Source: Natronomonas sp. CBA1123 (GTDB lineage Archaea > Halobacteriota > Halobacteria > Halobacteriales > Haloarculaceae). From it: 64,000 nt of DNA. Position 1 is the first letter of the stretch; every line of letters begins with the position of its first letter. The notes below the pieces were generated by a model, which was not told the DNA's origin, made no database searches, and saw only the letters and a list, made by a program, of their open reading frames with translations. The stretch is from NCBI RefSeq assembly GCF_009741925.1, contig NZ_WPCC01000001.1, forward strand, positions 186,001 through 250,000. The letters are read 5' to 3'. Made by a program: the position numbers and the translations under genes. This document shows, one piece after another, positions 30,172 through 46,872 of this stretch.

Positions 30172-30747
30172 GTGTCAGAGACGCCGAAGTGGATCGAAGA
30201 ACGCATCGATCGGAACCTCAACAACACGCTTACCCAACGGCACGTCGTCGAGACGATGCTCGAGGCCGATCGACCGTTCTTCTCGATTCGACAGCTCCAA
30301 GCGCGTGTGAAACCGGACGTCGGGAAAGGAACGGTCCGGAACCGACTCAAGGAGCTACAGGAAATCGATGTAGTCGCGACCGAGACGTATCCCGAATCGA
30401 TTACGCTGTACTACATCGATCACCGAGAATCGGACTGGCCGCTCTCACCCGAAGGCAAGCGTGCGTTGACCAGCGAATCCCCGCTGGATCGGCTCTCCCT
30501 TCGCGGATTCCTCACCCTTCAAGACACCGTGGGAATCCGCACGCTCGTACTGGCAGGCTTTCAACTCAGTCTGCTACTATTCGCACTCGGCGCCGTTGCC
30601 CTCGTTCTCGGAGTCAACGCGGGAACGCAAAGCGACAGCCGACTGCTGGCCGCCGCCTTCGACCTCTTCGGCATCTGTCTGCTCCTGTTGATAGGTGAAC
30701 GAATCGCGCGTTGGATTCGTAACAAGGACTGGTTCGGAACCGACTGA
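30172..30747 (+). CDS. HTH protein with two C-terminal TM helices (copy 1)
   Basis: A 191-aa protein with an N-terminal winged-helix-like domain (about 20-85: VVETMLEADRPFFSIRQLQ, GKGTVRNRLKEL) and two transmembrane helices near the C-terminus (about 122-146 and 160-180). The order is the reverse of the usual membrane HTH layout: DNA-binding first, anchor last. The paralog at 33329 shares the block DRLSLRGFLT...TLVLAGFQLSLLL. Start GTG 30172 is supported by TTTTACTA about 30 nt upstream. Target genes are unknown, but its neighbours are membrane proteins. Confidence 0.75.
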   Translation: MSETPKWIEERIDRNLNNTLTQRHVVETMLEADRPFFSIRQLQARVKPDVGKGTVRNRLKELQEIDVVATETYPESITLYYIDHRESDWPLSPEGKRALTSESPLDRLSLRGFLTLQDTVGIRTLVLAGFQLSLLLFALGAVALVLGVNAGTQSDSRLLAAAFDLFGICLLLLIGERIARWIRNKDWFGTD

Positions 30748-33143: not shown

Positions 33144-33328
33144 CGGCCGAATATGCGGATTGGCCGAGACAAGTATCTGGCTGTCTGCGGTTCAGGAGTC
33201 ACTCGGCTTGTGCCGCCGCGATTGCTTCAGTGGGCGTCCGACGCCGTTGTACGCGCGCCGATTGCCGGCCAGTGGCCGCAGAATCTCCGCACCGATTTAT
33301 CCCGTTCTGGAGACGAGGGGGCTTTGCC

Positions 33329-33895
33329 ATGTCCGCCCTCCCGCCATGGATAGAACGTCGAATCGACCGGGGGACCGATTTCGACGCGATTCGAGTCGGA
33401 CTCGTCGAATCGCTACTCCAGACAGACCAGCCGTTCCTCTCGACTAGACAGTTGTGTACGGACGTTTTTCCCGATATCGAAGACGAGATACTTCTGGAGC
33501 AACTGGACGAACTCCGAGCGAGCGACATCATCGCCACGGCATCGTACGACGAGCCGGCAACGCTGCATTACATCAGGTACCCGGAATCAAAGCAGCCACC
33601 GACCGTCCAGTCGGGCCGACATCTCACGGCAGCCAATCCGTTAGACCACCTCTCACTGCGTCGGTTCCTCACGATGCGGGACACCGCCGGCGTCCGTACG
33701 TTGGTGCTGGCCGGCTTTCAATTGAGCCTCCTACTGTTGGCTCTCGGCAGTGTATTGACTGTGCTCGGTATCGACCCGGGGTCGAAGAGTGACCTCGTTC
33801 TCTGGGATACTGCGTTCGACCTCTTCGGCGTCTGCCTGCTGCTGTTGGTCACCGAGCGAGTAGTCCACCGGGTGCGCTCCAACCCCACCAACTGA
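33329..33895 (+). CDS. HTH protein with two C-terminal TM helices (copy 2)
   Basis: A 188-aa paralog of the protein at 30172 with the same order: winged-helix-like domain (about 22-85: VESLLQTDQPFLSTRQL, then EDEILLEQLDEL), the linker block DHLSLRRFLTM, and two transmembrane helices (about 120-143 and 157-177, TLVLAGFQLSLLLLALGSV). TATA-like GATTTATCC about 31 nt upstream supports ATG 33329. Located between DUF6498 and htpX genes. The duplication suggests paired membrane regulators; targets unknown. Confidence 0.75.
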   Translation: MSALPPWIERRIDRGTDFDAIRVGLVESLLQTDQPFLSTRQLCTDVFPDIEDEILLEQLDELRASDIIATASYDEPATLHYIRYPESKQPPTVQSGRHLTAANPLDHLSLRRFLTMRDTAGVRTLVLAGFQLSLLLLALGSVLTVLGIDPGSKSDLVLWDTAFDLFGVCLLLLVTERVVHRVRSNPTN

Positions 33896-33973
33896 ACGAC
33901 GGGACGACTGCCCGAATCGGCCATCGAAGTCGGTACTCAACGTTTTTCAGCACCTGTTCCGAAGCCGTTCGTG

Positions 33974-34966
33974 ATGCCCTCCAAGCACCTCGAATTGTAT
34001 GTTGGAATGGTCGGTGCCGTCGCCGGAATCGGCGTCGTTACCGTTGGGTTTCTCGCGGGAACGTGGGGCGTCTTTTACGCTATTCTCACTTTTCTCGAAA
34101 TCGGTTCGCCAGCCATGCTTTCGGCCGGAATCACTGCGATAATCCTGTTGACCGTCGGCTATCTCGAATACAGGCAGGTCGACACGATAGAGCGGTTCGC
34201 GGACGCCCAGACCGTGAGTCGAGATACGGCACCGGAACTGTACGAAACGGCTACTCGAATCGCAGCCCAACTCGACGTACCTGTCCCCCGTATTGCGATA
34301 GCGGAACGGGACGTCCCCGAAGCGTTGGCGGTCGGCTTCCGGCCAGATGCCGTTCACTTGGTGCTCTCGCGTGGCACCCTCGAAGCGCTCGAGGGAACTG
34401 ACGAGTTGGAAGCGGTACTCGCTCACGAACTCGCTCACGTCAAAAACCGAGACGCGATGATTATGACCGCCGTTTCGCTCCCGGTCGTCCTCGCCGAGGG
34501 GCTGGGGACTCGGGTTTCGAAGGTGGAGAATCCCGGTTGGGGCGCCATTGTCGTCGTCCCGCTGGCGTTCCTCTCGACGGTCGTTTGGGTTATCGGACGA
34601 ACAATCGTCGCCCGGCTTTCGAGAGTCCGAGAGCGGGCAGCCGACCGGGCTGCCGCGGAGGCGACCGGTTCGCCCGCCGCTCTCGCCAGCGCGCTCCAGC
34701 GGCTGGACCGAAACATCGCCGAGACACCGAACCAAGACCTCCGGGCGGTTGCGGGTGTCTCGTCGCTATCCATTCTCTCGCTCGAACCGGACGACCCCGA
34801 GAAGGTGATGCTCGGCCCCGACGGCGAAACCGAACCGTCCTACTGGTGGCTTCGAAAACGGCTCCACAGAATCGAACGACGGCTCTTCGATACGCATCCG
34901 CCGACGCGGGACCGAATCGAGGCACTGTCGGCCGAAGCGCGTCGACGAGAACAGACAAAAAAGTAG
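33974..34966 (+). CDS. htpX: HtpX-like M48 membrane metalloprotease
   Basis: A 330-aa HtpX/M48-family protease. Two transmembrane segments at the N-terminus (about 10-38 and 46-65) are followed by the zinc site HELAH (151-155, in LAHELAHVKNRDA), two more hydrophobic segments (about 165-205), and the third ligand Glu in VRERAADRAA (about 222). HtpX degrades misfolded membrane proteins and is an envelope-stress gene in bacteria. It could also start at GTG 33971, one codon earlier. It is surrounded by membrane-protein and membrane-regulator genes, consistent with envelope quality control. No GTTTCA pair was seen in its own promoter. Confidence 0.87.
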   Translation: MPSKHLELYVGMVGAVAGIGVVTVGFLAGTWGVFYAILTFLEIGSPAMLSAGITAIILLTVGYLEYRQVDTIERFADAQTVSRDTAPELYETATRIAAQLDVPVPRIAIAERDVPEALAVGFRPDAVHLVLSRGTLEALEGTDELEAVLAHELAHVKNRDAMIMTAVSLPVVLAEGLGTRVSKVENPGWGAIVVVPLAFLSTVVWVIGRTIVARLSRVRERAADRAAAEATGSPAALASALQRLDRNIAETPNQDLRAVAGVSSLSILSLEPDDPEKVMLGPDGETEPSYWWLRKRLHRIERRLFDTHPPTRDRIEALSAEARRREQTKK

Positions 34967-35161
34967 ATAGACCGAGCAGCGTCAACGAGGCACCGTTCGA
35001 TGCGGACGTTCGTTTTCGTCGCCTCGAAAAGAGGGCGGCAGTGGGGGATTACGGAGGGGGTGGAGGGAACGGATTTTCGCTTCGGCGTCGGATACTGCTC
35101 CCGCCTCCGACTCGGCGGGCACCTAATCGTGCACAGGTAAGTAACATCAAACCGCCCGCAG

Positions 35162-35180
35162 TGTTTCAATTCGTGAAACA
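35162..35180. promoter_or_regulatory. TGTTTCA-N5-TGAAACA operator upstream of AIM24 gene
   Basis: Perfect 7-bp inverted repeat, half-sites 11 bp apart. It ends 47 nt before ATG 35228; its centre is 25 bp upstream of the TATA-like TTTTACT (35193-35199). A further TGAAAC lies at 35209. The same arrangement occurs at 36827-36845 and 36994-37012, see findings. The position just upstream of the TATA element suits an activator. Confidence 0.68.
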
Positions 35181-35227
35181 GTGCCCTGCCGGTTTTACTC
35201 ATCAGTTGTGAAACCTCGGGTGTCGCC

Positions 35228-35887
35228 ATGAACTTAGAAGAATTCACCCAATCGCACGCCCCCACGGAGAGCGAAGACGGCTTTCGGAAGACGAACAATC
35301 GACTGCTCGAAATCCCCGTCGATGGGACGGTGATGATAAAGGCCGGGTCGATGATTGGATACACCGGCGAGATGACGTTCACCGGAAAATCCTCCGCCGA
35401 GGGTGGACTCACCGGGTTCGTCAAGGAGGCGGTGACGAGCGAGGGGACGCCGATTATGGAAGCCGAGGGGAGCGGTCGGCTCTACGTTGCCGACCGAGGC
35501 AAAAAGGTCCAAATCCTCGACCTCGACCCCGACGAATCGATTTCGGTCAACGGCAACGATATCCTTGGCTTCGGGTCCACGGTCGATTACGAAATCAACA
35601 CCATCGGAAGCCTCTCGGAAGCGGCCGCCGGGGGACTGACCAACGTCTATCTCACCGGTCCCGGACAGGTCGCCATCTCGACGCACGGCGACCCATTGGT
35701 GATGACACCGCCGGTCGTGACCGACCCCGACGCAACCGTCGCGTGGAGCACCAATCTCTCGCCGTCGTTCAGGACGAACAAGATGATTGAAATCGGACAA
35801 ACCTCGGGTGAGACGATACAGATGGAGTTCACCGGCTCCAACGGGTTCGTCGTCATTCAACCGCACGAGGAAGGCTCACAGCTGTGA
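35228..35887 (+). CDS. AIM24-family protein
   Basis: A 219-aa AIM24-family (formerly TIGR00266/DUF124) protein: LLEIPVDGTVMIKAGSMIGY, GLTGFVKEAVTSEGTPIM, GSGRLYVADRGKKVQIL, DISISVNG-type segments around 105-115, and a C-terminal TVAWSTNLSPSFRT. The family has a beta-prism-like fold of unknown function; the mitochondrial member is membrane-organising. Its promoter carries a perfect TGTTTCA-N5-TGAAACA palindrome and a TATA-like TTTTACT about 32 nt upstream of the ATG. It is followed by a small membrane protein gene on the same strand (67 nt). Confidence 0.86.
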   Translation: MNLEEFTQSHAPTESEDGFRKTNNRLLEIPVDGTVMIKAGSMIGYTGEMTFTGKSSAEGGLTGFVKEAVTSEGTPIMEAEGSGRLYVADRGKKVQILDLDPDESISVNGNDILGFGSTVDYEINTIGSLSEAAAGGLTNVYLTGPGQVAISTHGDPLVMTPPVVTDPDATVAWSTNLSPSFRTNKMIEIGQTSGETIQMEFTGSNGFVVIQPHEEGSQL

Positions 35888-35954
35888 CCCAGCGCCGAGC
35901 TGAAGCGGCGCTGTCCCCGATTGTCGGAGGGTAATCGAGAGGTCAGTTCTGTCC

Positions 35955-36224
35955 ATGCATCCATCCCGTCTGGTATCGGCCTGTTTTCTCGTGGTTAGCA
36001 TCCTGCTGTTGGCGCAACTCGGAACGACCGAACCACTCCAGGCGACAGCGGCCACGGTGCTGCAGGCCAGTGGTGGTATCGTGCTGTTCGTCGGTGCGGT
36101 ATACGGTTTCGTTCGATACGAAGCAAACCCGATTGTGACGGAGTACGGACCGATGACGTACGTACTCGTCTTTGGGACGTTCGTGTGGGCAACTGGAATC
36201 GCCGTCCGATTGCTGCTTGGCTAG
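35955..36224 (+). CDS. Small three-helix membrane protein
   Basis: An 89-aa protein with three hydrophobic segments (about 5-22, 30-50 and 65-86), starting MHPSRLVSACFLVVSILLL and ending in a GIAVRLLLG helix. No family is recognised and no catalytic residues stand out. It follows the AIM24 gene on the same strand and may be cotranscribed with it, under the same palindromic site. It faces the Tat lipoprotein gene (15 nt between stops). Confidence 0.7.
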   Translation: MHPSRLVSACFLVVSILLLAQLGTTEPLQATAATVLQASGGIVLFVGAVYGFVRYEANPIVTEYGPMTYVLVFGTFVWATGIAVRLLLG

Positions 36225-36239
36225 TCGGCGGCGACGGAA

Positions 36240-36782
36240 TCAGGAACTGCTCTCGGCGTCTTCGAGGTCGCTGAGTTCTTCGATGACCGTTATCTCGATG
36301 GGGTTCTCCGAACTACCGACACCGAGACCGACGACGATGTGTTCGTCCGCCGGCGCGGTGACATCCACCGACCGTTCGGCCGACCCGACGCCGTTTATTT
36401 CGCTGTCCTCATCCAAATCGAGCGTAATCGTATACGCCCCGGCGTCCGTCAGGACGTCTCCGTAGGTGTTGTCACCGTTTTCGTCGGGGTCGTCGGTTCC
36501 CTCGCTGCCCGCGTCGTCTTCCTCGTCACTCGCCGCGAGTTCGAACTGCTCGTCGAGGACGGGTTCGTCGTTCGGGTCGGTAACCTGAATCGACCCTGCC
36601 CGCACCTCGTTCGTCTCGTTGAACAGGTTTACGTCGTCGAGAACTAGGCTTCCAAGGCTGTTCATCAGGTGCGTACAACCGGCGAACCCAGCGACCGCTG
36701 CGCTCGTGCTGAAGGCGAGAAATCGACGTCGACCGACTCCTGATGCAACTGCGGACTGCAACGTACCGTTGTCCGATGGCAT
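36240..36782 (-). CDS. Tat-type lipoprotein with acidic insert
   Basis: A 180-aa exported lipoprotein: twin-arginine signal GRRRFLAFSTSAAVAGFAGC, with the lipid-modified Cys35 at its end. The mature part has a beta-rich domain (LDDVNLFNETNEVRAGSIQV and onwards) interrupted by a very acidic Glu/Asp/Gly stretch (about 84-104), probably a flexible loop. Function unknown. Its promoter contains CGTTTCA-GGCCC-TGAAACG (36827-36845) 44 nt from the ATG, with a TATA-like TGATAAC between at about -29. This is the same architecture as the AIM24 and 37055 promoters. Confidence 0.78.
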   Translation of the reverse strand: MPSDNGTLQSAVASGVGRRRFLAFSTSAAVAGFAGCTHLMNSLGSLVLDDVNLFNETNEVRAGSIQVTDPNDEPVLDEQFELAASDEEDDAGSEGTDDPDENGDNTYGDVLTDAGAYTITLDLDEDSEINGVGSAERSVDVTAPADEHIVVGLGVGSSENPIEITVIEELSDLEDAESSS

Positions 36783-36826
36783 AGCAACGACACCTCCACA
36801 CGCGGGGGTTATCAGTCACCGAGCAC

Positions 36827-36845
36827 CGTTTCAGGCCCTGAAACG
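36827..36845. promoter_or_regulatory. CGTTTCA-N5-TGAAACG operator upstream of lipoprotein gene
   Basis: Perfect 7-bp inverted repeat with half-sites 11 bp apart, reading toward the minus gene at 36782: 44 nt to its ATG and 25 bp from its centre to the TATA-like TGATAAC (36808-36814). Matches the sites at 35162-35180 and 36994-37012 in sequence and geometry. Confidence 0.68.
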
Positions 36846-36993
36846 CTTCGGTGATGTACGAGACCGTTTGTCAGTCGATGAATCGACACACACCGGAACG
36901 ACGACTCGAAGCCAGCAAGCACCGTTCGGAACCGGTTTCGTGGCGGTGTCCGCACCCTCCATAGCGAACGCGGGGGCCTACATCTCCGGGCAG

Positions 36994-37012
36994 TGTTTCA
37001 GAGACTGCAACA
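36994..37012. promoter_or_regulatory. TGTTTCA-N5-TGCAACA operator upstream of membrane gene
   Basis: Inverted repeat with one mismatch (TGCAAC for TGAAAC), half-sites 11 bp apart. It ends 42 nt before the GTG at 37055; its centre is 23 bp from the TATA-like TTTTATT (37023-37029). Third member of the set in this 2-kb stretch. Confidence 0.6.
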
Positions 37013-37054
37013 GAGGACCGCGTTTTATTCATATCAACAAAGTAGAGGCGTCGT

Positions 37055-37510
37055 GTGGTGTCGACTGAATTGGGCGCCGTCGCCGTGTTTACAGCCGTCG
37101 TGCTGTTCGTCTGGTCTCCGTTGTTGGTCGTCGAGCGCCTCCGGGCACTGTTTGTTTGGCCGACGCGCTGGATGGCCCTGAATTACGCTCTCGTCGGAGC
37201 GGGGGTACTCCTCGTTCAGTGTCTGTCGTATTTCGCCGTATTCCTCCTCGCAGCAGGGACAGGGATGGTCACCGGTGGTGACGCGGCCGCAATCGTCGGC
37301 GGCGTCGTCATCGTGAACCTTGCCGTTCCGAGCGCCGGAGCGATTGCGGCGCTCCGAACGCTTCCAGCCCGCGGCATCTGGTCACCGGCTGGCGATGGAT
37401 TGAGCGGGCGAATCGCACTCGGAGTGGGAGTCCTTTGGTACGCCATCGTCACGACCGTCCTCTTCCTCGTCATCGGAGCGGTGATTCTGGTTGCAAACCT
37501 TCCGACGTAG
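37055..37510 (+). CDS. Four-helix membrane protein
   Basis: A 151-aa membrane protein with about four hydrophobic helices (about 7-24, 40-65, 78-100, 125-148), beginning with GTG codons at 37055 and 37058 (either may be used). Short charged loops connect the helices; no catalytic motif is visible. TTTTATT about 29 nt upstream fits a leaderless start. The upstream half-site pair suggests membership of the same regulon as the AIM24 and lipoprotein genes. No family recognised. Confidence 0.72.
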   Translation: MVSTELGAVAVFTAVVLFVWSPLLVVERLRALFVWPTRWMALNYALVGAGVLLVQCLSYFAVFLLAAGTGMVTGGDAAAIVGGVVIVNLAVPSAGAIAALRTLPARGIWSPAGDGLSGRIALGVGVLWYAIVTTVLFLVIGAVILVANLPT

Positions 37511-37526
37511 CCGAGGGCCAAGACAG

Positions 37527-38918
37527 CTACTCTCCGGATGTGAACTGCGCCGGCGTGACGTTTTGAACGAATAATACGCCGTCGTAGGTGTCACCGGGGG
37601 ATGCCGGCAGGGGGACGGACCCTCGCTGGGCGGCGCTCGGGACCGAGAACTGAATCTTGGAAATCCCCTCGAGCCATCGGTCGATGTTCGCGTCGTTTCG
37701 AGCGTCGTCGAAATCGAGGAAGAGCCGTGAGTTCGAGGCCGACACGAACGTCGCTGCAAGCGTTCCGTCTATCGGCTCGCCAAGGTCGAAGGACTTGAAT
37801 TCGGTCCGAGCGTGATTCGTCGGGACGCCAAACGACCCGGTGCCGAACAGTTGTCCGAGCGAATAGTAGTCCGCCCCGAACTCGTCGGTTAGGTGCTGGC
37901 CCATTCGCGCGTTTGTCTCGCCCGACCCGCGGTAGCCCCGCATCGTATGATTTGAGTTTCCCAAAACGACGGCGCGGTCGGCGCCCGTCCAGTCACGCAG
38001 CCACGAGACGTTCCGAGCCATCGCCCCGTCACGAAGCGCCTCGGCGTGAGCAGTCCCCTCTTGGTGGCTCGTCTCGAAGAACCGCAGTCCCCGTTCGAGC
38101 GTCCAGACGTGTCGCATCGTCAGTTGCCACGCCGACAGCGAACGCCGGTCGACGTACGTTGATTTCTTCGTCCGGAGCCGTTCTCGGAGTTCTTCGAGGA
38201 ACGAGACACGGTCGTCGGTGATGAACTCGGCATCCGACTTCTCCGAGGGCGGCACCGTGAGCGGCTCCAATCTGTCCGTTATCTCGCTCAGATACTCCGA
38301 ATCGACCGCCTCGAAATACGAGCGAATCGCCTCGGCGTTCGTGTGGTAGAATTGGGCGTCGTACCCGTAGACGACGACTTGGTCGTCGTCGGCACGCCCG
38401 GCATTGAACTCACGAAGCCACTCGAAGAGCTCTCGGAGACCCGCTGTCTGCCAGAAGTAGAAATCCAACGACGACATCGCGTCTTCGAGACGTCCGTCGC
38501 CACCCGTGACGTACTCGTTGATTGCTTCGAAATCACCGAGCGTCCCTTCCATCGCAATCAGTCGATACCCGTGATTCGAAACGAGTCGCCGAATCAAGTG
38601 ATACGGAGCGGTTTTGAACTCTCGCACCCCGTGGGAGTTCTCACCGATGCCGACTATCGGTGCCGTCGAGACGGTCGAAGCGACGGTGTCGAATCCGTCG
38701 GACGAAGCCGAAAACGCGACGGGGACCGACTGTTGCTCGATTGCGGCGAGGGGGACACTAGAGTCCCCTTCATCCGGTGTGCCGGATGGGGTGGCGTCGT
38801 CCGGCGTGGGCGTCCCGCCAGTCTCGGAGTCGTTCGAGCACCCGGCGAGTGAACTGACACCCGTCGTGGCAAGTATCGTAGCGAACTGTCGACGCGAAAT
38901 TCGGTTGGAGGGCAGCAT
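37527..38918 (-). CDS. Erythromycin esterase-family lipoprotein
   Basis: A 463-aa exported protein. The Tat-type signal SRRQFATILATTGVSSLAGC ends in a lipobox Cys, followed by a Thr/Pro/Asp-rich linker (about 30-60). The catalytic domain matches the EreA/EreB-like family: IVGIGENSHGVREF, LIAMEGTLGDFEAINEY, VVYGYDAQFYHTNAEA and a conserved His in VVLGNSNHTMRGY. In bacteria some members hydrolyse macrolide esters, but most are of unknown function; here resistance is not implied. Located between the membrane-protein cluster and the propionyl-CoA synthase gene, with no pathway partner visible. Confidence 0.85.
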   Translation of the reverse strand: MLPSNRISRRQFATILATTGVSSLAGCSNDSETGGTPTPDDATPSGTPDEGDSSVPLAAIEQQSVPVAFSASSDGFDTVASTVSTAPIVGIGENSHGVREFKTAPYHLIRRLVSNHGYRLIAMEGTLGDFEAINEYVTGGDGRLEDAMSSLDFYFWQTAGLRELFEWLREFNAGRADDDQVVVYGYDAQFYHTNAEAIRSYFEAVDSEYLSEITDRLEPLTVPPSEKSDAEFITDDRVSFLEELRERLRTKKSTYVDRRSLSAWQLTMRHVWTLERGLRFFETSHQEGTAHAEALRDGAMARNVSWLRDWTGADRAVVLGNSNHTMRGYRGSGETNARMGQHLTDEFGADYYSLGQLFGTGSFGVPTNHARTEFKSFDLGEPIDGTLAATFVSASNSRLFLDFDDARNDANIDRWLEGISKIQFSVPSAAQRGSVPLPASPGDTYDGVLFVQNVTPAQFTSGE

Positions 38919-39079
38919 GCGTCAACATGGGAGTTGCCACCCTCGGGTGAAAAATCTACATATCAAGTGTTCGTCGTTTGCCGATGAAAGTTGTTAACTG
39001 TGGGGCGTACGCAGAATGAACCTTGACCTGACAGAACGCTGGTGTGAGGCCGCAGTGGGTCGTTACGACCGTCTCCGTC

Positions 39080-42000
39080 TCACTCCTTCCGCCCCCACGC
39101 TTTGAACAGTTCGTCTCGTGTTCGAAGCCCGTCGGTCGGCAGGGCGTGGTTCGCCACGTAGGACTCGGCGTCGTGTTCGTTGTCCCACATCGCCTGGTGG
39201 GCTTCGGGGAGGTCCTCCCAGTCGACCAGTTCGGGCGTCGTGATGTCGAGAGCGCCGGCGTCGATGGCGGCGTTCAACTGCTGGACCTCGTAGGCGTTCG
39301 ACAGGTGACTGCCGAGAATCGACGCGGTCGGCATGTGAATCTCGCGTTGGCGCATCCAGACCTGCGGCGCGTAAAACGAGTACCGCCGGTCTTCGAGGCT
39401 CTCGCTGTAGACGACGCGGCCTGTGTGGGGGCGGACGAGCATCGTCGAGACGCCAAGCGAGTCCTGCCCGGCGCGTTCGAACACCACGTCCGGGTAGCCG
39501 CGTGGGTTCTCCGGCGTCCGGAGGTGTTCGCCGATTGCCTTCCCGAGCGGCTTGAACGCCGAATCGGTGTAGGCCTGGACGGCCTGCTTGAACGCCTCGG
39601 GGTCGGCTTGTGGATGGGGCAGTTCCGGCATCGTCTCGGGCCACTCGAAGTCGTCCTCGCGGCGCTGTAACCCTTCGATGGAGTAACTGCCGGCGACGGA
39701 ATCCCCGTAGCCGAGCGATTCGACGAACTCCCGCTGTTCGTCGGTGTAGGCGACGACCACGACGGTCGCGTCTTTCTCGCGGGCCGCCTCGATTGCTCGC
39801 AGCCCCACCTCGTCGAGAACATCGTCGGGGCCGGTATCGGTGCCGTAGTAGACGACGGCACCGTCGCCGGCACGCAAATCGACGCGGTCGAACATCGTCT
39901 CGGGCGTCTCGCTGCCGGGCTTACCGAGGAACGTCAGCTCGTAGCCCGTCGAAGCGCCCCAGAAGGTGAGCGTGCCGCCCTCCCCGAGTGTCTGGAAGGT
40001 GCGGGGGAAGGACTGCTCGCCGGCGTGACTCACCGCGTAATCCGCACGCGTGCCGTGGTGTGATTCGAACGCTTCGACGAACGGCTGGCCGGCTTCCTTC
40101 CAGTCGTCCCACGCCTCGGGGTCGCGGGGAATCGGCCCCCAGATGTCGTCGTACGGCGGTTCGGTCCGGTCGATTGCGTGGGCGCCCGCCGAGGCTATCC
40201 GGTCGGCCCGGTCGGCGCTCGAACACAGGCCGGTCACCGAGACGCCGTTGCGCGTGGCGGTCCGGACGGACTCCCAGCCGGTGCCGGTCGCGCCGCCCTC
40301 GACGAACATCGCCGTCTCCGATTCGATGTCGAGGGTGGTGAACAGCGCCCGATACACCGTTCCGAGCGCGAGGACGTACGACCCGGCCTCTTCGAGCGTC
40401 GCCTCGGCCGGAATCGGATGGACCTGCGGCCCCTGTGCGACCATGAACTGCTGGTGGCTGCCGTCGGGTTCCTCGTAGCCCTGGATGCTGAAGCCGGCGT
40501 ACATCGGGTCCAGCCCCATCCGCGGGGACAGCAGGTCGCTCTGCCCCGAGTAGACGGTGACGAGGTCGCCGACCTGTACGCGGCCCTGTTCGCGGACGGC
40601 CGCCCCCTGCTCGACGACGAGGGCGACGCCGCCGCTGCCCGTGATGTGGCGGTCGCTGTCGTGGTTGTCGAACTGGCTGACGGGGATGCCGGTCACCGCC
40701 CAGATGTCGTTGAAGTTCACCTCGCTGGCGAGGACGTACAGCAACACCTCGTTGGGACCGGGCTCTTCGACCGGGTAGACACCCTCGAGTTCCGCCTCGC
40801 GTGGGTCGCCGTGGTTCGGTTCGCCCGTCTCGGGGGCCTTCTCGACGGCGAAGCCGAACTGCCAATCTGGGACCTCGTCGACGCCGGGGTAGAACGGCTC
40901 GCCGACGGGAATGGCCTCGCCCGAGTCGATTAGCTCCTCGGCGTCCTCGATACCGGGAGCCTCCCGTGGTCGAAGCGGCAACGGCTCGCTTCGCTTGTCG
41001 AGGAACTTCTCGATGCCGGTCTTGCCACCGTCGGGGTCGACGACGGCGGCCCCGAAGTGCTCCGCTTCGGTCGCATACCCCGTCTCGATGCCGTCCTCGA
41101 AGCCCGTCCGGATGGCGTCGACAGCGCGGTCGAAGGCGGCCGCCCGGCCGGCGCTCGCGTGTTCACACTGCCGGCGGTTGCGAGCCACGTCAGGGTCGTC
41201 GAGGACATCTTCGTCGAACTCGCCGGGCGTCCGCCAGCGCTCGCGAGCGGCCCCTCGGTCCTCCTGGGCGTCGCGAAGCGTCGCCGTTTCGCCGCGGACG
41301 TGGGCCCGTGCGAGCGCCGCCGCCCGCGACCGGGCCGTCGTTTCGGTCGCCACCTCGTCGATAAGTCCCATCGCCTCGGCGTCGTCGGCGTCGACCGACC
41401 GGCCGTTCGTTATCATCGTCACCGCGTCGACGATACCCTCCGTTCCGCGCTCCTCGGCGAGGACTCGCGGCAGGCGCTGAGTGCCGCCGTAGCCGGGGAT
41501 GAGGTTCAACCGGAGTTCCGGTTGCCCGAACTCGACGTGGTCGTCGGCGACGGTGTAGTGGGTCGCCAACTGCAGTTCGTTGCCGCCGCCCAGGGCGACG
41601 CCGTTGACGGCCGCGACGACCGGTACCGAGAGCGTCTCCAGTTTCCGGAAGGCCTCGTGGGCCTTCGTCGCCAGCGTCCGGGCGGTGTCGGCCTCGTGGA
41701 CCTCCTCGAGGAACTGCTCGATGTCGGCGCCGGCGACGAACGCCTCGCTCTCGCTGGCGAGGACGACCGCGTCCACGTCCTCGCGGCGGTCGAGGTGGTT
41801 CGCGACGGTGTTGAGTTCGTCCAGCGCCCGCTCGGTGAGCGCGTTGACCGGCGGGTTGTCGATGACGACCGTCGCCACGTCCGCATCGGCCCCCGGAACA
41901 GTGTTGTACTGTACCGTGAAGAACCGATACTCGTCGAGAACCTCCTGTTCGCGGGCGATGCGCTGTCGGCGCCGCCACCGCTCGGCTTTCGGCCGAATCG

Positions 42001-44470
42001 CCTCGACCGCCCCCGGATTCTTCAGCGTCGTCGTATCGCCGGGGTCCTCACCCGACAGCATCGCTGTCAACATCCGACGCATGTACTTTCCAGAGCGGGT
42101 CTCGGGGAACGCCTCGACCTCGATGAACGAATCCGGGACCGCGACGACGCCCTTCTCCTCTCTGACGAGACGGGCCAGTCGGCGTTCGACCTCAGTGGTC
42201 AACTCCGTCCCCTCCCGTGTCTGGACGAAGGCGACCGGAACCAGCCCCTGCTCGTGGTGTGGCGCGCCCACGACGACGACGTTTGCGACCGGCGTCTCGG
42301 GGTTCAGTTGCTTGTCGCGCAGCATCGCGCCCTCCAGTTCCTCAGTCCCCATGCGGTGTCCGGAGACGTTGATGACCTCGTCGGAGCGACCGTGCAGGGA
42401 GAACGAACCATCGTCGTACTGCTTTGCCACGTCGCCCTGCAGGTAGGCGAGTTCGCCCTCCTTTTCGACCCAGTAGGTGTCTTCGAAGCGCTGGCGATTG
42501 CCCGTCCAGTCGGTCGGATTCTCGGGGTCCCAGCCCTCCAAGTCGCCCCACACCGTCCGCATCAGATACGGATACGGCTCTCGGATGATGATTTCGCCCC
42601 GCTCGCCTACGTCTGCGTCCTCGAATCGAACGCCGTCTTCGGTCTCCTCTTTGCGCCACACGTCGCCGAACACCCACGGACAGGGGTAGGTGTGAGCGTC
42701 CGGGCGCAACTCGAAATCCTCGTTGCCGAAGAAGTGCGTCCAGACGATGCCGCCGTGTTCGGTCGCCCAGTAGGAGTTGATGTACCACTCACACACCGCC
42801 TCCATGCCGAACTTCTGGACGGCCGGACTGACCGGCTCCGCACAGAACGTCGCCACACGGAGCGAGTCGGTCGACCACGCCTCCATGTCGGCGACGTTCT
42901 CCTCGTCTTCCATCACGGTCTTCAGGAACGTGACGCCGGCTTTGAACGCCGTCACGTCGTACCGTTCGATAATCGAGGTGAATCGGCCGGCATCGGGGTA
43001 CAGCGGCGACCCCTCGGCGATGACGCCGGTCGTCCGCGTCGAAAGCGAGGCGCTGATGAGGTACGACTGTCCCGTAATCCACCCGGGGTCGGCGACGACG
43101 AATATCGTGTCCTCGCCCGGCACCACGTCGAAGGACACCGACATCGTGTGTGCGATGCCCGCGGTGTAGCCGCCGTGGACGTGGACGACGCCCTTCGGCT
43201 TCCCCGTCGACCCGCTTGTGAAGATGACGAACAGCGGGTACTCCGCGTTGACCGGCTCGGGGTCGTTGCTCGCCCACAGCGCCTCGACGAACTCTCGGTC
43301 CGAAAGCGTCGCTAGCTCTTCGCGCGTCTCCACGTCGAAGCCGGCGTCTCGGGCGTTTTCGAGGACTTGCTCGCCCGCCTCGGCTTCCAGTTCGTGGGCC
43401 CACGAGTCCCGCTCGTAGCACTGAATCTCGTGGCCGGTGTGTTCGACGACCACCACATCGTCGACGACGTGGTCGGCACCGACGAGCGCCGAGGCGAGTT
43501 CGGTCCGCACCGCCGACGCCCGCTCGGGCGACAGCGACAGCGAATCCAGGGCGTGTCCCACCCCGCGCATCGCGTCGGCTCTGTCGACCGTTATCTCGCC
43601 CTCGATGGCGGATTCGACGCCCTCGCGGACGGTCGCGGCCTGCTCCTCGGAGAGGTCGAGGTCCGAAAGCGTCCGGTCGACGACATCGAGAACGGTCTCC
43701 GTCGGGAGGTACTCCTCCAGGGCCGGGTCGGCGTAGGCCTCCTTGTACGGCGTCACCTCGGCGTTCCGGTAGCCGCCGTCGGCTGTCACGAGCACGTCGG
43801 CGCCGAGTTCGGCGATGCGGTCCGAGAGGGTCTTGTCGCTGAACCCGCCGAACACCGGCGTGTAGACGACGCCGAGGCGCTTGCAGGCCTCGATGTAGTA
43901 GATTTGCTCGGGAACGTTCGGCATGTTGAGCGCGACGCGGTCGCCCTTCTCGACGCCGAGGTCACGGAGCACCTCGGCCGCGACGACGACCTCGTACAGC
44001 AGTTCCCGTCGGGAGATAGCCTCGGAGACGACCGGCCCGCCTCGGCCGTCGTTTTGCAGTTGGTCCCACCGGTCGCCCTCGAACTGGTAGGCGATTTCCT
44101 CGCCGTGGCCGGCGAGAACGTGGCGGTCGACTTCGTTGAAACAGGCGTTCGTCAGGCCGCCGGCGAACCACCGATACAGCGGCGGGTCCGAATCGTCGAA
44201 GGCCACGTCCCACGGTTCGTATTCCGCGTCGTAGTCGAGTTCCGTCGGCATACACCCCTCGAAGCCGGTCCACGTCTCGGCGTCGGCGTCGAGACTCGCC
44301 CACGCGCCGTCGTCGGGGAGAAACCAATGGAGTTCGCGTTTCGCGATGTCGCCGTGGAACGCGCCGGGGTCCTCTCGGGCGCGCCGTCGCTGTTCGTTCC
44401 AGTCGTCGGCCGTCCGTATCGGATTGCTACGAATTCGGTCCGGCGGCCGAGGAGCATCAGAATCGTTCAC
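39080..44470 (-). CDS. Trifunctional propionyl-CoA synthase-like fusion
   Basis: A very large 1796-aa fused enzyme. Domain 1 (about 1-810) is an AMP-forming acyl-CoA synthetase: FTSGSTGKPKGVVHVHGG (about 420), SYWATEHGGI, GRSDEVINVSGHRMGTEE and the lysine in ETRSGKYMRRML (about 795). Domain 2 (about 845-1090) is an enoyl-CoA hydratase: AVNGVALGGGNELQLA and GQPELRLNLIPGYGG, with both catalytic Glu. Domain 3 (about 1190-1796) is a medium-chain enoyl-CoA reductase with the NADPH site VEGGATGTGWESV (about 1391). The order and size match propionyl-CoA synthase of Chloroflexus, which turns 3-hydroxypropionate into propionyl-CoA. GTG 44470 was chosen because a T-rich element (CGGTTTTGCC) lies about 28 nt upstream; TTG 44497 would add nine residues. 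Substrate assignment is inference. Confidence 0.85.
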   Translation of the reverse strand: MNDSDAPRPPDRIRSNPIRTADDWNEQRRRAREDPGAFHGDIAKRELHWFLPDDGAWASLDADAETWTGFEGCMPTELDYDAEYEPWDVAFDDSDPPLYRWFAGGLTNACFNEVDRHVLAGHGEEIAYQFEGDRWDQLQNDGRGGPVVSEAISRRELLYEVVVAAEVLRDLGVEKGDRVALNMPNVPEQIYYIEACKRLGVVYTPVFGGFSDKTLSDRIAELGADVLVTADGGYRNAEVTPYKEAYADPALEEYLPTETVLDVVDRTLSDLDLSEEQAATVREGVESAIEGEITVDRADAMRGVGHALDSLSLSPERASAVRTELASALVGADHVVDDVVVVEHTGHEIQCYERDSWAHELEAEAGEQVLENARDAGFDVETREELATLSDREFVEALWASNDPEPVNAEYPLFVIFTSGSTGKPKGVVHVHGGYTAGIAHTMSVSFDVVPGEDTIFVVADPGWITGQSYLISASLSTRTTGVIAEGSPLYPDAGRFTSIIERYDVTAFKAGVTFLKTVMEDEENVADMEAWSTDSLRVATFCAEPVSPAVQKFGMEAVCEWYINSYWATEHGGIVWTHFFGNEDFELRPDAHTYPCPWVFGDVWRKEETEDGVRFEDADVGERGEIIIREPYPYLMRTVWGDLEGWDPENPTDWTGNRQRFEDTYWVEKEGELAYLQGDVAKQYDDGSFSLHGRSDEVINVSGHRMGTEELEGAMLRDKQLNPETPVANVVVVGAPHHEQGLVPVAFVQTREGTELTTEVERRLARLVREEKGVVAVPDSFIEVEAFPETRSGKYMRRMLTAMLSGEDPGDTTTLKNPGAVEAIRPKAERWRRRQRIAREQEVLDEYRFFTVQYNTVPGADADVATVVIDNPPVNALTERALDELNTVANHLDRREDVDAVVLASESEAFVAGADIEQFLEEVHEADTARTLATKAHEAFRKLETLSVPVVAAVNGVALGGGNELQLATHYTVADDHVEFGQPELRLNLIPGYGGTQRLPRVLAEERGTEGIVDAVTMITNGRSVDADDAEAMGLIDEVATETTARSRAAALARAHVRGETATLRDAQEDRGAARERWRTPGEFDEDVLDDPDVARNRRQCEHASAGRAAAFDRAVDAIRTGFEDGIETGYATEAEHFGAAVVDPDGGKTGIEKFLDKRSEPLPLRPREAPGIEDAEELIDSGEAIPVGEPFYPGVDEVPDWQFGFAVEKAPETGEPNHGDPREAELEGVYPVEEPGPNEVLLYVLASEVNFNDIWAVTGIPVSQFDNHDSDRHITGSGGVALVVEQGAAVREQGRVQVGDLVTVYSGQSDLLSPRMGLDPMYAGFSIQGYEEPDGSHQQFMVAQGPQVHPIPAEATLEEAGSYVLALGTVYRALFTTLDIESETAMFVEGGATGTGWESVRTATRNGVSVTGLCSSADRADRIASAGAHAIDRTEPPYDDIWGPIPRDPEAWDDWKEAGQPFVEAFESHHGTRADYAVSHAGEQSFPRTFQTLGEGGTLTFWGASTGYELTFLGKPGSETPETMFDRVDLRAGDGAVVYYGTDTGPDDVLDEVGLRAIEAAREKDATVVVVAYTDEQREFVESLGYGDSVAGSYSIEGLQRREDDFEWPETMPELPHPQADPEAFKQAVQAYTDSAFKPLGKAIGEHLRTPENPRGYPDVVFERAGQDSLGVSTMLVRPHTGRVVYSESLEDRRYSFYAPQVWMRQREIHMPTASILGSHLSNAYEVQQLNAAIDAGALDITTPELVDWEDLPEAHQAMWDNEHDAESYVANHALPTDGLRTRDELFKAWGRKE

Positions 44471-44570
44471 ACGTACCGCTGTAGTTCGCGACGGCAAAAC
44501 CGCTTCGCCGATAGGAGGAATTTCCGCGAGGGGAGGTGTAAATCAGCCTGAACGAGACGCCGCGAGGGGT

Positions 44571-44990
44571 CTACCGAACGACGGTCACCGGGACGGGGCA
44601 CCGTTGGAACACTGTCTGGGCGACGTTGCCGATGAACAGACGGTCGACGAGAGAGCTGCCGTGGCTTCCGATGACGACGGTGTCGAACGACTCCGCACGG
44701 TCGACGATGGCCCGCCCCGGACGGCCCATGTCGACAACCGTGTCGATGTCACGGTCGTATTCGTCGGCGATGGCGCGAGCGCGGGCGAGCACCTCACTCG
44801 CCTGTTCCTCGGCGGCGGCTTCGATGTCATCTTCCAGCGCCAACGCGGTCGCCTCGCCGAGCATCGACGACGGCTCTCCGACGACGTGCATGACGGTGAT
44901 GTCGGCGTCGGCGTGGGTTTCGAGGGCGTACCTGAGCGCGCTCTCGGCGAGTTCCGAATCGTCCATCGGGACGAGTACGCGTGTCGTCAT
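44571..44990 (-). CDS. Universal stress protein (UspA family)
   Basis: A 139-aa single-domain Usp protein: MTTRVLVPMDDSELAESALR at the start and GSHGSSLVDRLFIGNVAQTV at the end, matching the nucleotide-binding signature. The middle includes a rather acidic helix (ALEDDIEAAAEEQASEVLA). TATA-like GCGTTTATTC about 27 nt upstream supports ATG 44990. It lies between the PiT permease and the propionyl-CoA synthase gene on the same strand; no direct functional tie is visible. Confidence 0.92.
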   Translation of the reverse strand: MTTRVLVPMDDSELAESALRYALETHADADITVMHVVGEPSSMLGEATALALEDDIEAAAEEQASEVLARARAIADEYDRDIDTVVDMGRPGRAIVDRAESFDTVVIGSHGSSLVDRLFIGNVAQTVFQRCPVPVTVVR

Positions 44991-46248: not shown

Positions 46249-46872
46249 TCATTCGTCGTCCCGTTCGTCGTCGGCGTTGCTCTTCGAGTCCCCGTCGGCC
46301 GCCGCTTCGACCTCTTCGGCGTCGAGTTCCTCCTTCCGAGGCCGTCTGTCGATGCGTTGGTTGACCGCCTCGAGTTGGTCGACGATGGTCTCGATTTCGT
46401 CGGAAAGCGTCTGCTCGACGTTCTCGGTCACCTCTTGGGTGACTTCCTGTGTGACTTCCTGTGTGACCTCTTCGGCCACCTTCTCCTCGACGCTCTCCGT
46501 GACCTCTTGGGTGACTTTCTCCCCGACGTTCTCCGTCACCTCTTGAGTGACTTTCTCCCCGACGTTCTCCGTGACCTCCTCAGTCACCTTCTCTTCGACG
46601 CTCTCGGTGACTTCTTCTGTCACTTTCTCGCCGACGTTCTCGGAGACCTCCTCGGTCAGCGACTCCTCGATGTTCTCGGTGACCTCTTTGGTCATCCAGT
46701 CGGGGTCGAAGCGCGCCATCTTCCAGGCGACGTGAACGGCATAGGAGACGAGCGCGCCAAGTCCGAAGGCGATACCGATCCCCGTCGACCCGGTGGCGAT
46801 GAGGACGATCGCAACCAACAGCAGGAGACCGTACGCCATGTCAACCATGAAGTCGACTCGGCTCGGATTCAT
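46249..46872 (-). CDS. Membrane-anchored protein with 12-residue helical repeats
   Basis: A 207-aa protein. One or two transmembrane helices (about 12-28 and 30-50) are followed by a long, strongly charged helical region (about 61-155) built from 12-residue units of the type VTEEVTENVGEK, with Val every fourth residue. A less repetitive helix and a disordered acidic C-terminus (EAAADGDSKSNADDE) follow. Regular hydrophobic spacing of four would give a strongly right-handed coiled coil or amphipathic lipid-binding helix. Upstream lie the TATA-like GCTTTATATTTC and GGTGGA before ATG 46872. Probably in operon with the PiT permease and may regulate or scaffold it. Function unknown. Confidence 0.8.
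   Translation of the reverse strand: MNPSRVDFMVDMAYGLLLLVAIVLIATGSTGIGIAFGLGALVSYAVHVAWKMARFDPDWMTKEVTENIEESLTEEVSENVGEKVTEEVTESVEEKVTEEVTENVGEKVTQEVTENVGEKVTQEVTESVEEKVAEEVTQEVTQEVTQEVTENVEQTLSDEIETIVDQLEAVNQRIDRRPRKEELDAEEVEAAADGDSKSNADDERDDE
46408..46692 (-). repeat. 36-bp tandem coding repeat (12-residue units)
   Basis: In-frame repeats in the gene at 46249-46872. Five to six units of 12 residues follow each other and then three short EVTQ units. DNA identity between units is high, suggesting recent duplication and possible length variation. Confidence 0.75.

Follow-up and report, generated by a model that had tools for sequence, protein, structure and literature searches.

The minus-strand gene at 39080..44470 of the window (the whole 64,000-nucleotide stretch of Natronomonas sp. 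CBA1123 that was analysed) very probably encodes a propionyl-CoA synthase (PCS). Based on domain order, full-length homology and catalytic residues, this assignment was given a probability of roughly 0.9. PCS is an enzyme of bacteria that build carbon through the 3-hydroxypropionate cycle. It has been described in Chloroflexota, Proteobacteria and Actinobacteriota (PMC9802188), and a search of the open literature, with subscription papers outside its scope, returned no report of a haloarchaeal one. The family is known, but haloarchaea are unexpected hosts for it, and relatives of the window's copy plausibly carry a new variant of the pathway.

Gene, domains and catalytic residues

An earlier sequence-only reading had described a fusion of three enzymes in the order and size of PCS, 1796 residues long. 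This length was reproduced with the GTG start at 44470. An alternative in-frame TTG start, the first TTG of the frame, is possible at 44497 and would give a gene at 39080-44497 with 1805 residues; all residue numbers below refer to this 1805-residue frame. The codon score of the minus-strand gene, calculated by the gene-calling script, was 725, the highest in the window, and the frame read on the plus strand across the same coordinates contained stops.

A 752-residue plus-strand open reading frame at 41057-43315 was dismissed as a high-GC antisense artefact; codon bias favours the minus-strand gene. Codon score, homology and dN/dS together ruled out that the gene is a chance or antisense reading frame. 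In Natronomonas gomsonensis, an ortholog was 97% identical, with dN 0.0145, dS 0.191 and dN/dS 0.076; the gene is therefore under strong constraint through purifying selection.

Pfam domains were found in the order ACAS_N, AMP-binding and AMP-binding_C, followed by ECH_1, and then by ADH_N and ADH_zinc_N. The best 25 NCBIfam matches all fell short of their cut-offs. A phmmer search of the PDB yielded one continuous match (2070.9 bits, E = 0) of query residues 29-1801 to residues 25-1839 of the 1850 in 6eqo, which the structure library lists as trifunctional propionyl-CoA synthase from Erythrobacter sp. NAP1. Overall identity was 54%, with 57% (56.6%) for the ligase, 49% for the hydratase with its linker and 55% for the reductase, so that the proposed resemblance to PCS held end to end, with all three domains collinear.

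Grouping of the domains with unrelated fatty-acid enzymes, named in advance as grounds for abandoning the assignment, was checked, and the domains were those of PCS. A chance fusion of such enzymes was ruled out by the whole-length collinearity with 6eqo.

For the residue comparison, residues 25-1839 of 6eqo were reconstructed from the phmmer alignments and aligned with 17 other PCS sequences. The acetyl-CoA-synthetase-like ligase domain (41948..44413, minus strand; residues 29-850; PF16177/PF00501/PF13193) retained the P-loop TSGSTGKPKG, the motif SGKYMRR and, by motif alignment with 6eqo, the adenylation lysine Lys804 (42086-42088). The putative 3-hydroxypropionyl-CoA dehydratase, a crotonase-type domain that was delimited together with its linker (41003..41935, minus strand; residues 855-1165; PF00378), carried the aligned glutamate pair Glu974 (41576-41578) and Glu994 (41516-41518).

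The third domain (39083..41002, minus strand; residues 1166-1805) is a predicted acrylyl-CoA reductase of the MDR type. It contained an insert of about 185 residues (approximately 1525-1705) that is absent from crotonyl-CoA carboxylase/reductase, and its Asp1264 (40706-40708) aligned with Asp1302 of 6eqo. The earlier observation that key residues of all three active sites are visible was thus upheld for K804, E974, E994 and D1264. In all 14 haloarchaeal PCS sequences aligned with 6eqo, the P-loop, the adenylation lysine, both crotonase glutamates, the glycine-rich nucleotide loop and the reductase aspartate were kept.

We take Asp1302 of 6eqo to be the residue that sets PCS apart from its carboxylating relatives; it is reportedly the position altered to make the Erythrobacter reductase a carboxylase. 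As an aspartate occupied this position in all copies, a carboxylating reductase was considered unlikely, provided that the residue has this meaning.

The hydratase-reductase half only was modelled with ColabFold from 13 sequences, yielding pLDDT 66 and pTM 0.41, with the reductase part poorly modelled. When this moderate-confidence model was searched against PDB structures, 6eqo ranked first (E 3e-94, TMq 0.57), a result that was given little weight.

The Erythrobacter enzyme shares with the window's protein the three domains, their order, length and motifs, and the reductase insert. It is bacterial, whereas the window's PCS has an archaeal host and an acidic, haloarchaeal composition (pI 4.4; Asp+Glu 18.8% compared with 14.3% in 6eqo), like its haloarchaeal orthologs. 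The PCS of Chloroflexus aurantiacus is taken to have the same domain order and length.

Distribution and gene neighbourhoods

Among 116 sampled Halobacteria genomes, full-length PCS was present in two, the window's genome (G000) and a genome of the family Natrialbaceae (G029), and three others had only the reductase or hydratase-reductase part. Full-length copies were found in 7 of 20 Natronomonas genomes and in 11 of 121 Natrialbaceae genomes. Plasmids of 0.39-0.86 Mb carried the gene in Natrinema zhouii, three Natribaculum species and Natronococcus sp. CG52. In one genome (G130, L074:9036-13912), PCS was read as two overlapping pieces reaching the contig end, and this copy is therefore frameshifted or misassembled.

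The 14 haloarchaeal sequences formed one clade (100/100), apart from the Erythrobacter, Woeseiaceae and Myxococcota copies. A comparison of the domains with Chloroflexus and proteobacterial enzymes had been suggested earlier; separation from the bacterial copies was obtained, in a tree that had only four bacterial sequences and none from Chloroflexus. The pair containing the window's copy was sister to the clade that holds all loci of arrangement A, described below. An archaeal clade of this large, salt-adapted channelling enzyme offers a new test bed for the confinement of acrylyl-CoA by PCS.

Neighbourhoods were compared by means of a tblastn table over all loci, and four arrangements were distinguished. 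Arrangement A was seen at seven loci, to which other Natronomonas genomes contributed three, with an iron alcohol dehydrogenase (Fe-ADH) gene and a SauS-like dehydrogenase gene divergent from PCS. The carboxylase beta subunit gene (pccB) was present in six of the seven, a universal stress protein (USP) gene followed PCS in four, and methylmalonyl-CoA mutase (MCM) and epimerase (MCE) genes were also present in one. Arrangement B, in three Natrialbaceae loci, included PccB, mutase, PCS, Fe-ADH, HIBADH-like, SauS-like and IclR genes.

Arrangement C consisted of orphan copies: the window's group, N. jeotgali and other Natrialbaceae, Natronomonas LUM42 and two Natrinema-type loci, the last two keeping mutase and IclR genes nearby. 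In arrangement D, on bacterial contigs of Woeseiaceae and Myxococcota (L007, L008 and L010), a PCS of the same architecture and 50-51% identity was directly followed by a double-SDR protein of about 1200 residues, the pattern of malonyl-CoA reductase (Mcr). No haloarchaeal locus among those examined had such a protein after PCS.

The SauS-like dehydrogenase and Fe-ADH genes thus lay together beside PCS in 10 related loci (A and B), and were absent from that position in the window, in N. gomsonensis and in the other orphan loci. The clustered forms, from Natribaculum, Haloglomus, Salinirussus, Halovenus, Halorientalis and other Natronomonas, encode PCS 71-78% identical to the window's and in one clade with it; they usually also have PccB and sometimes MCM by PCS, whereas the window's copy has none of these.

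The absence of cycle neighbours noted earlier was reproduced with 17 other pathway proteins as queries, none of which had a match in the window, and no gene in the neighbourhood pointed to a substrate. Just upstream of PCS, on the same strand, lies a USP gene (44571..44990, minus strand; PF00582). It has an equivalent position in N. gomsonensis, and the USP genes after PCS in arrangement A are part of the same synteny comparison.

On the other side of PCS, about 5.9 kb (33187-39078), extending to a DUF6498 gene and containing erythromycin-esterase-like, AIM24 and M48 peptidase genes, had no counterpart in N. gomsonensis, where the locus is otherwise collinear. The DUF6498 gene was flanked by two diverged copies (30172-30747 and 33329-33895) of a gene for a probable membrane protein of about 190 residues. 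At 46249-46872, a protein without Pfam matches has a membrane segment followed by many 11-residue repeats of the EEVTENVxEKV type.

Pathway genes and proposed role of the window's enzyme

From homology, we infer the reactions, cofactor, channelling and metabolite flow as follows. The ligase domain would convert 3-hydroxypropionate, ATP and CoA to 3-hydroxypropionyl-CoA, the crotonase domain would dehydrate this to acrylyl-CoA, and the MDR domain would reduce acrylyl-CoA with NADPH to propionyl-CoA, the toxic intermediate probably being kept within the single polypeptide. In the Erythrobacter enzyme, the ligase domain forms 3-hydroxypropionyl-CoA in vitro (PMC11599936), and confinement of acrylyl-CoA by PCS has been described (PMC10176485).

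The window's genome (3.45 Mb, 97% complete; the window is C9:186001-250000) was searched for the remaining pathway genes, as the sequence-only reading had advised for malonyl-CoA reductase, propionyl-CoA carboxylase and PHA synthase. The carboxylase was found as its beta subunit only (PccB, contig C63), a class III PHA synthase scored above its cut-off (C29), and a methylmalonyl-CoA mutase gene with an adjacent epimerase gene was located on C22. Mcr of the Chloroflexus type was not found: the first approximately 560 residues of bacterial Mcr as query gave no match at E <= 1e-35 in this genome or in 12 others. At the same threshold, no SauS-like aldehyde dehydrogenase, iron alcohol dehydrogenase or HIBADH-type dehydrogenase was detected in the window's genome, and a genome search found no glutamate mutase. 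The picture in N. gomsonensis was the same.

The genome therefore has the epimerase, mutase and carboxylase (beta subunit) of the Chloroflexus-type 3-hydroxypropionate bi-cycle, and its Mcr was not found. Given these genes together with the PHA synthase, assimilation of 3-hydroxypropionate (or acrylate) and supply of PHA precursors, both suggested earlier, are both possible roles. Use of the bi-cycle in part for organic substrates is known (PMC6593406). As the genome search yielded no route from malonyl-CoA, 3-hydroxypropionate that is imported or made from other compounds is the most likely substrate; uptake as its source in the window's species and N. gomsonensis is a guess.

A role in supplying propionyl-CoA for the 3-hydroxyvalerate units of PHBV, formed from acetyl-CoA via intracellular 3-hydroxypropionate, appears unlikely. 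Such a 3-hydroxypropionate pathway to propionyl-CoA has been proposed for Haloferax mediterranei (review PMC7137286), and PHA synthase was present in the window's genome and in 11 of the 13 genomes searched. However, the enzyme is common in haloarchaea, so that co-occurrence says little, and neither a malonyl-CoA reductase nor a malonate-semialdehyde reductase was recognised in the window's genome. The PCS neighbours, where present, were moreover MCM and PccB, which drain propionyl-CoA, and not PHA genes.

Detoxification or assimilation of acrylate or acrylyl-CoA as the main role (e.g., from DMSP), with active ligase and reductase and an incidental dehydratase, was judged quite improbable. The C-terminal domain of Chloroflexus PCS does reduce acrylyl-CoA (PMC4029986), and the window's copy stands without neighbours that make 3-hydroxypropionate. 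Yet the dehydratase domain, which detoxification alone would not need, kept both catalytic glutamates in all copies, and the neighbours in clustered relatives (CoA-acylating aldehyde dehydrogenase, alcohol dehydrogenase, PccB and MCM) suit 3-hydroxypropionate instead.

The genome also encodes a glyoxylate shunt, with an isocitrate-lyase-like gene adjoining malate synthase (831 bits, cut-off 780). As both genes are present, PCS is not needed for growth on acetate in this organism. PCS as its sole anaplerotic route was rejected on the same grounds; the Natrialbaceae carriers searched have the glutamate mutase of the methylaspartate cycle.

Linked dehydrogenases and split forms in relatives

The genes linked to PCS in relatives bear on which enzymes carry the haloarchaeal 3-hydroxypropionate pathway. 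The PCS-linked aldehyde dehydrogenases belong to the SauS/SucD family, with SucD of C. kluyveri as the best PDB relative. They scored 551-592 bits to SauS, under the NCBIfam equivalog cut-off of 600, and the clusters contained no Xsc. In contrast, a second SauS-family copy in the Natrialbaceae genome G029 (L038:2255-8792) reached 676 bits beside Xsc, phosphotransacetylase and CoA-transferase genes, and served as a true SauS and internal control. Within the 116-genome sample, at E <= 1e-130, a SauS-like dehydrogenase was found only in G029, one of the two genomes with full PCS. This genome accordingly carries a sulfoacetaldehyde route as well as a PCS cluster.

Sulfoacetaldehyde, the substrate of SauS, is the sulfonate look-alike of malonate semialdehyde, as isethionate is of 3-hydroxypropionate. 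On the strength of this look-alike chemistry, the pair in arrangements A and B is proposed to convert malonyl-CoA to 3-hydroxypropionate. The SauS-like CoA-acylating dehydrogenase would form malonate semialdehyde from malonyl-CoA, and the Fe-ADH would reduce this to 3-hydroxypropionate; we infer that the two together may substitute for Mcr. With PCS, carboxylase and mutase, the pair could complete a half-cycle from acetyl-CoA and two bicarbonate to succinyl-CoA. It is tentatively proposed, at a little under even odds, that in some haloarchaea the opening half of the bi-cycle operates with such a rebuilt two-enzyme malonyl-CoA reductase, and that the version in the window's species is derived or incomplete and draws on 3-hydroxypropionate from outside.

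A serious rival, regarded as possible although doubtful, is that the pair works oxidatively as part of a catabolic island in the clustered relatives, converting 3-hydroxypropionate via malonate semialdehyde to malonyl-CoA, or 1,3-propanediol to 3-hydroxypropionyl-CoA. In principle, either type of enzyme can work in both directions, the closest solved relatives of the Fe-ADH are methanol and 1,3-propanediol dehydrogenases, and IclR regulators, in Natrinema also an ABC importer, lie nearby. However, the aldehyde dehydrogenase is closest to the SauS/SucD types, which act on acid semialdehydes, and not to the PduP type, and oxidation of the PCS substrate by enzymes of the same cluster would compete with PCS. 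PCS itself uses ATP and is expected to operate only in the direction of propionyl-CoA.

Apart from full-length PCS, partial forms were observed in several haloarchaea. At four loci (L014:7242-13851, L034:9048-16359, L076:9978-15327 and L078:9209-15194), a stand-alone PCS-type reductase of about 630 residues had an enoyl-CoA hydratase, an ADP-forming acyl-CoA ligase or both nearby. Reductase, hydratase and ligase occurred near one another in Haladaptatus, genome G073 and Natribaculum luteum, and reductase and ligase in genome G223. The best PDB relatives of this ligase were 4-hydroxybutyrate- and 3-hydroxypropionate-CoA ligases. In Natribaculum luteum, the split set shared a megaplasmid with a full PCS.

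In the 3-hydroxypropionate route of Thaumarchaeota, the three reactions that PCS combines in one fusion are divided among separate proteins, an ADP-forming 3-hydroxypropionyl-CoA ligase of another family, a dehydratase and a reductase. The sets in Haladaptatus and Natribaculum are comparable to it, with a PCS-type reductase.

A third form, a 956-residue hydratase-reductase fusion resembling PCS without the ligase domain, was found in a 1.9 Mb haloarchaeal genome (G021, L033:1481-4351). This fusion and the stand-alone reductases formed one reductase clade. AU tests on whether the stand-alone haloarchaeal reductases are older than PCS or descend from it gave 0.24 and 0.46, so that either may hold. 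Reductase alone, hydratase-reductase fusion and full fusion together offer a way to study the origin or the break-up of the fusion.

At one further locus (L035:9916-14656), a stand-alone PCS-type reductase gene adjoined malate synthase and isocitrate-lyase-like genes. In Haladaptatus (L014:10765-17675), genes for a Rieske oxygenase, a BCCT transporter and an FAD oxidoreductase lay beside the split PCS genes, which suggests a quaternary-amine or DMSP-like substrate.
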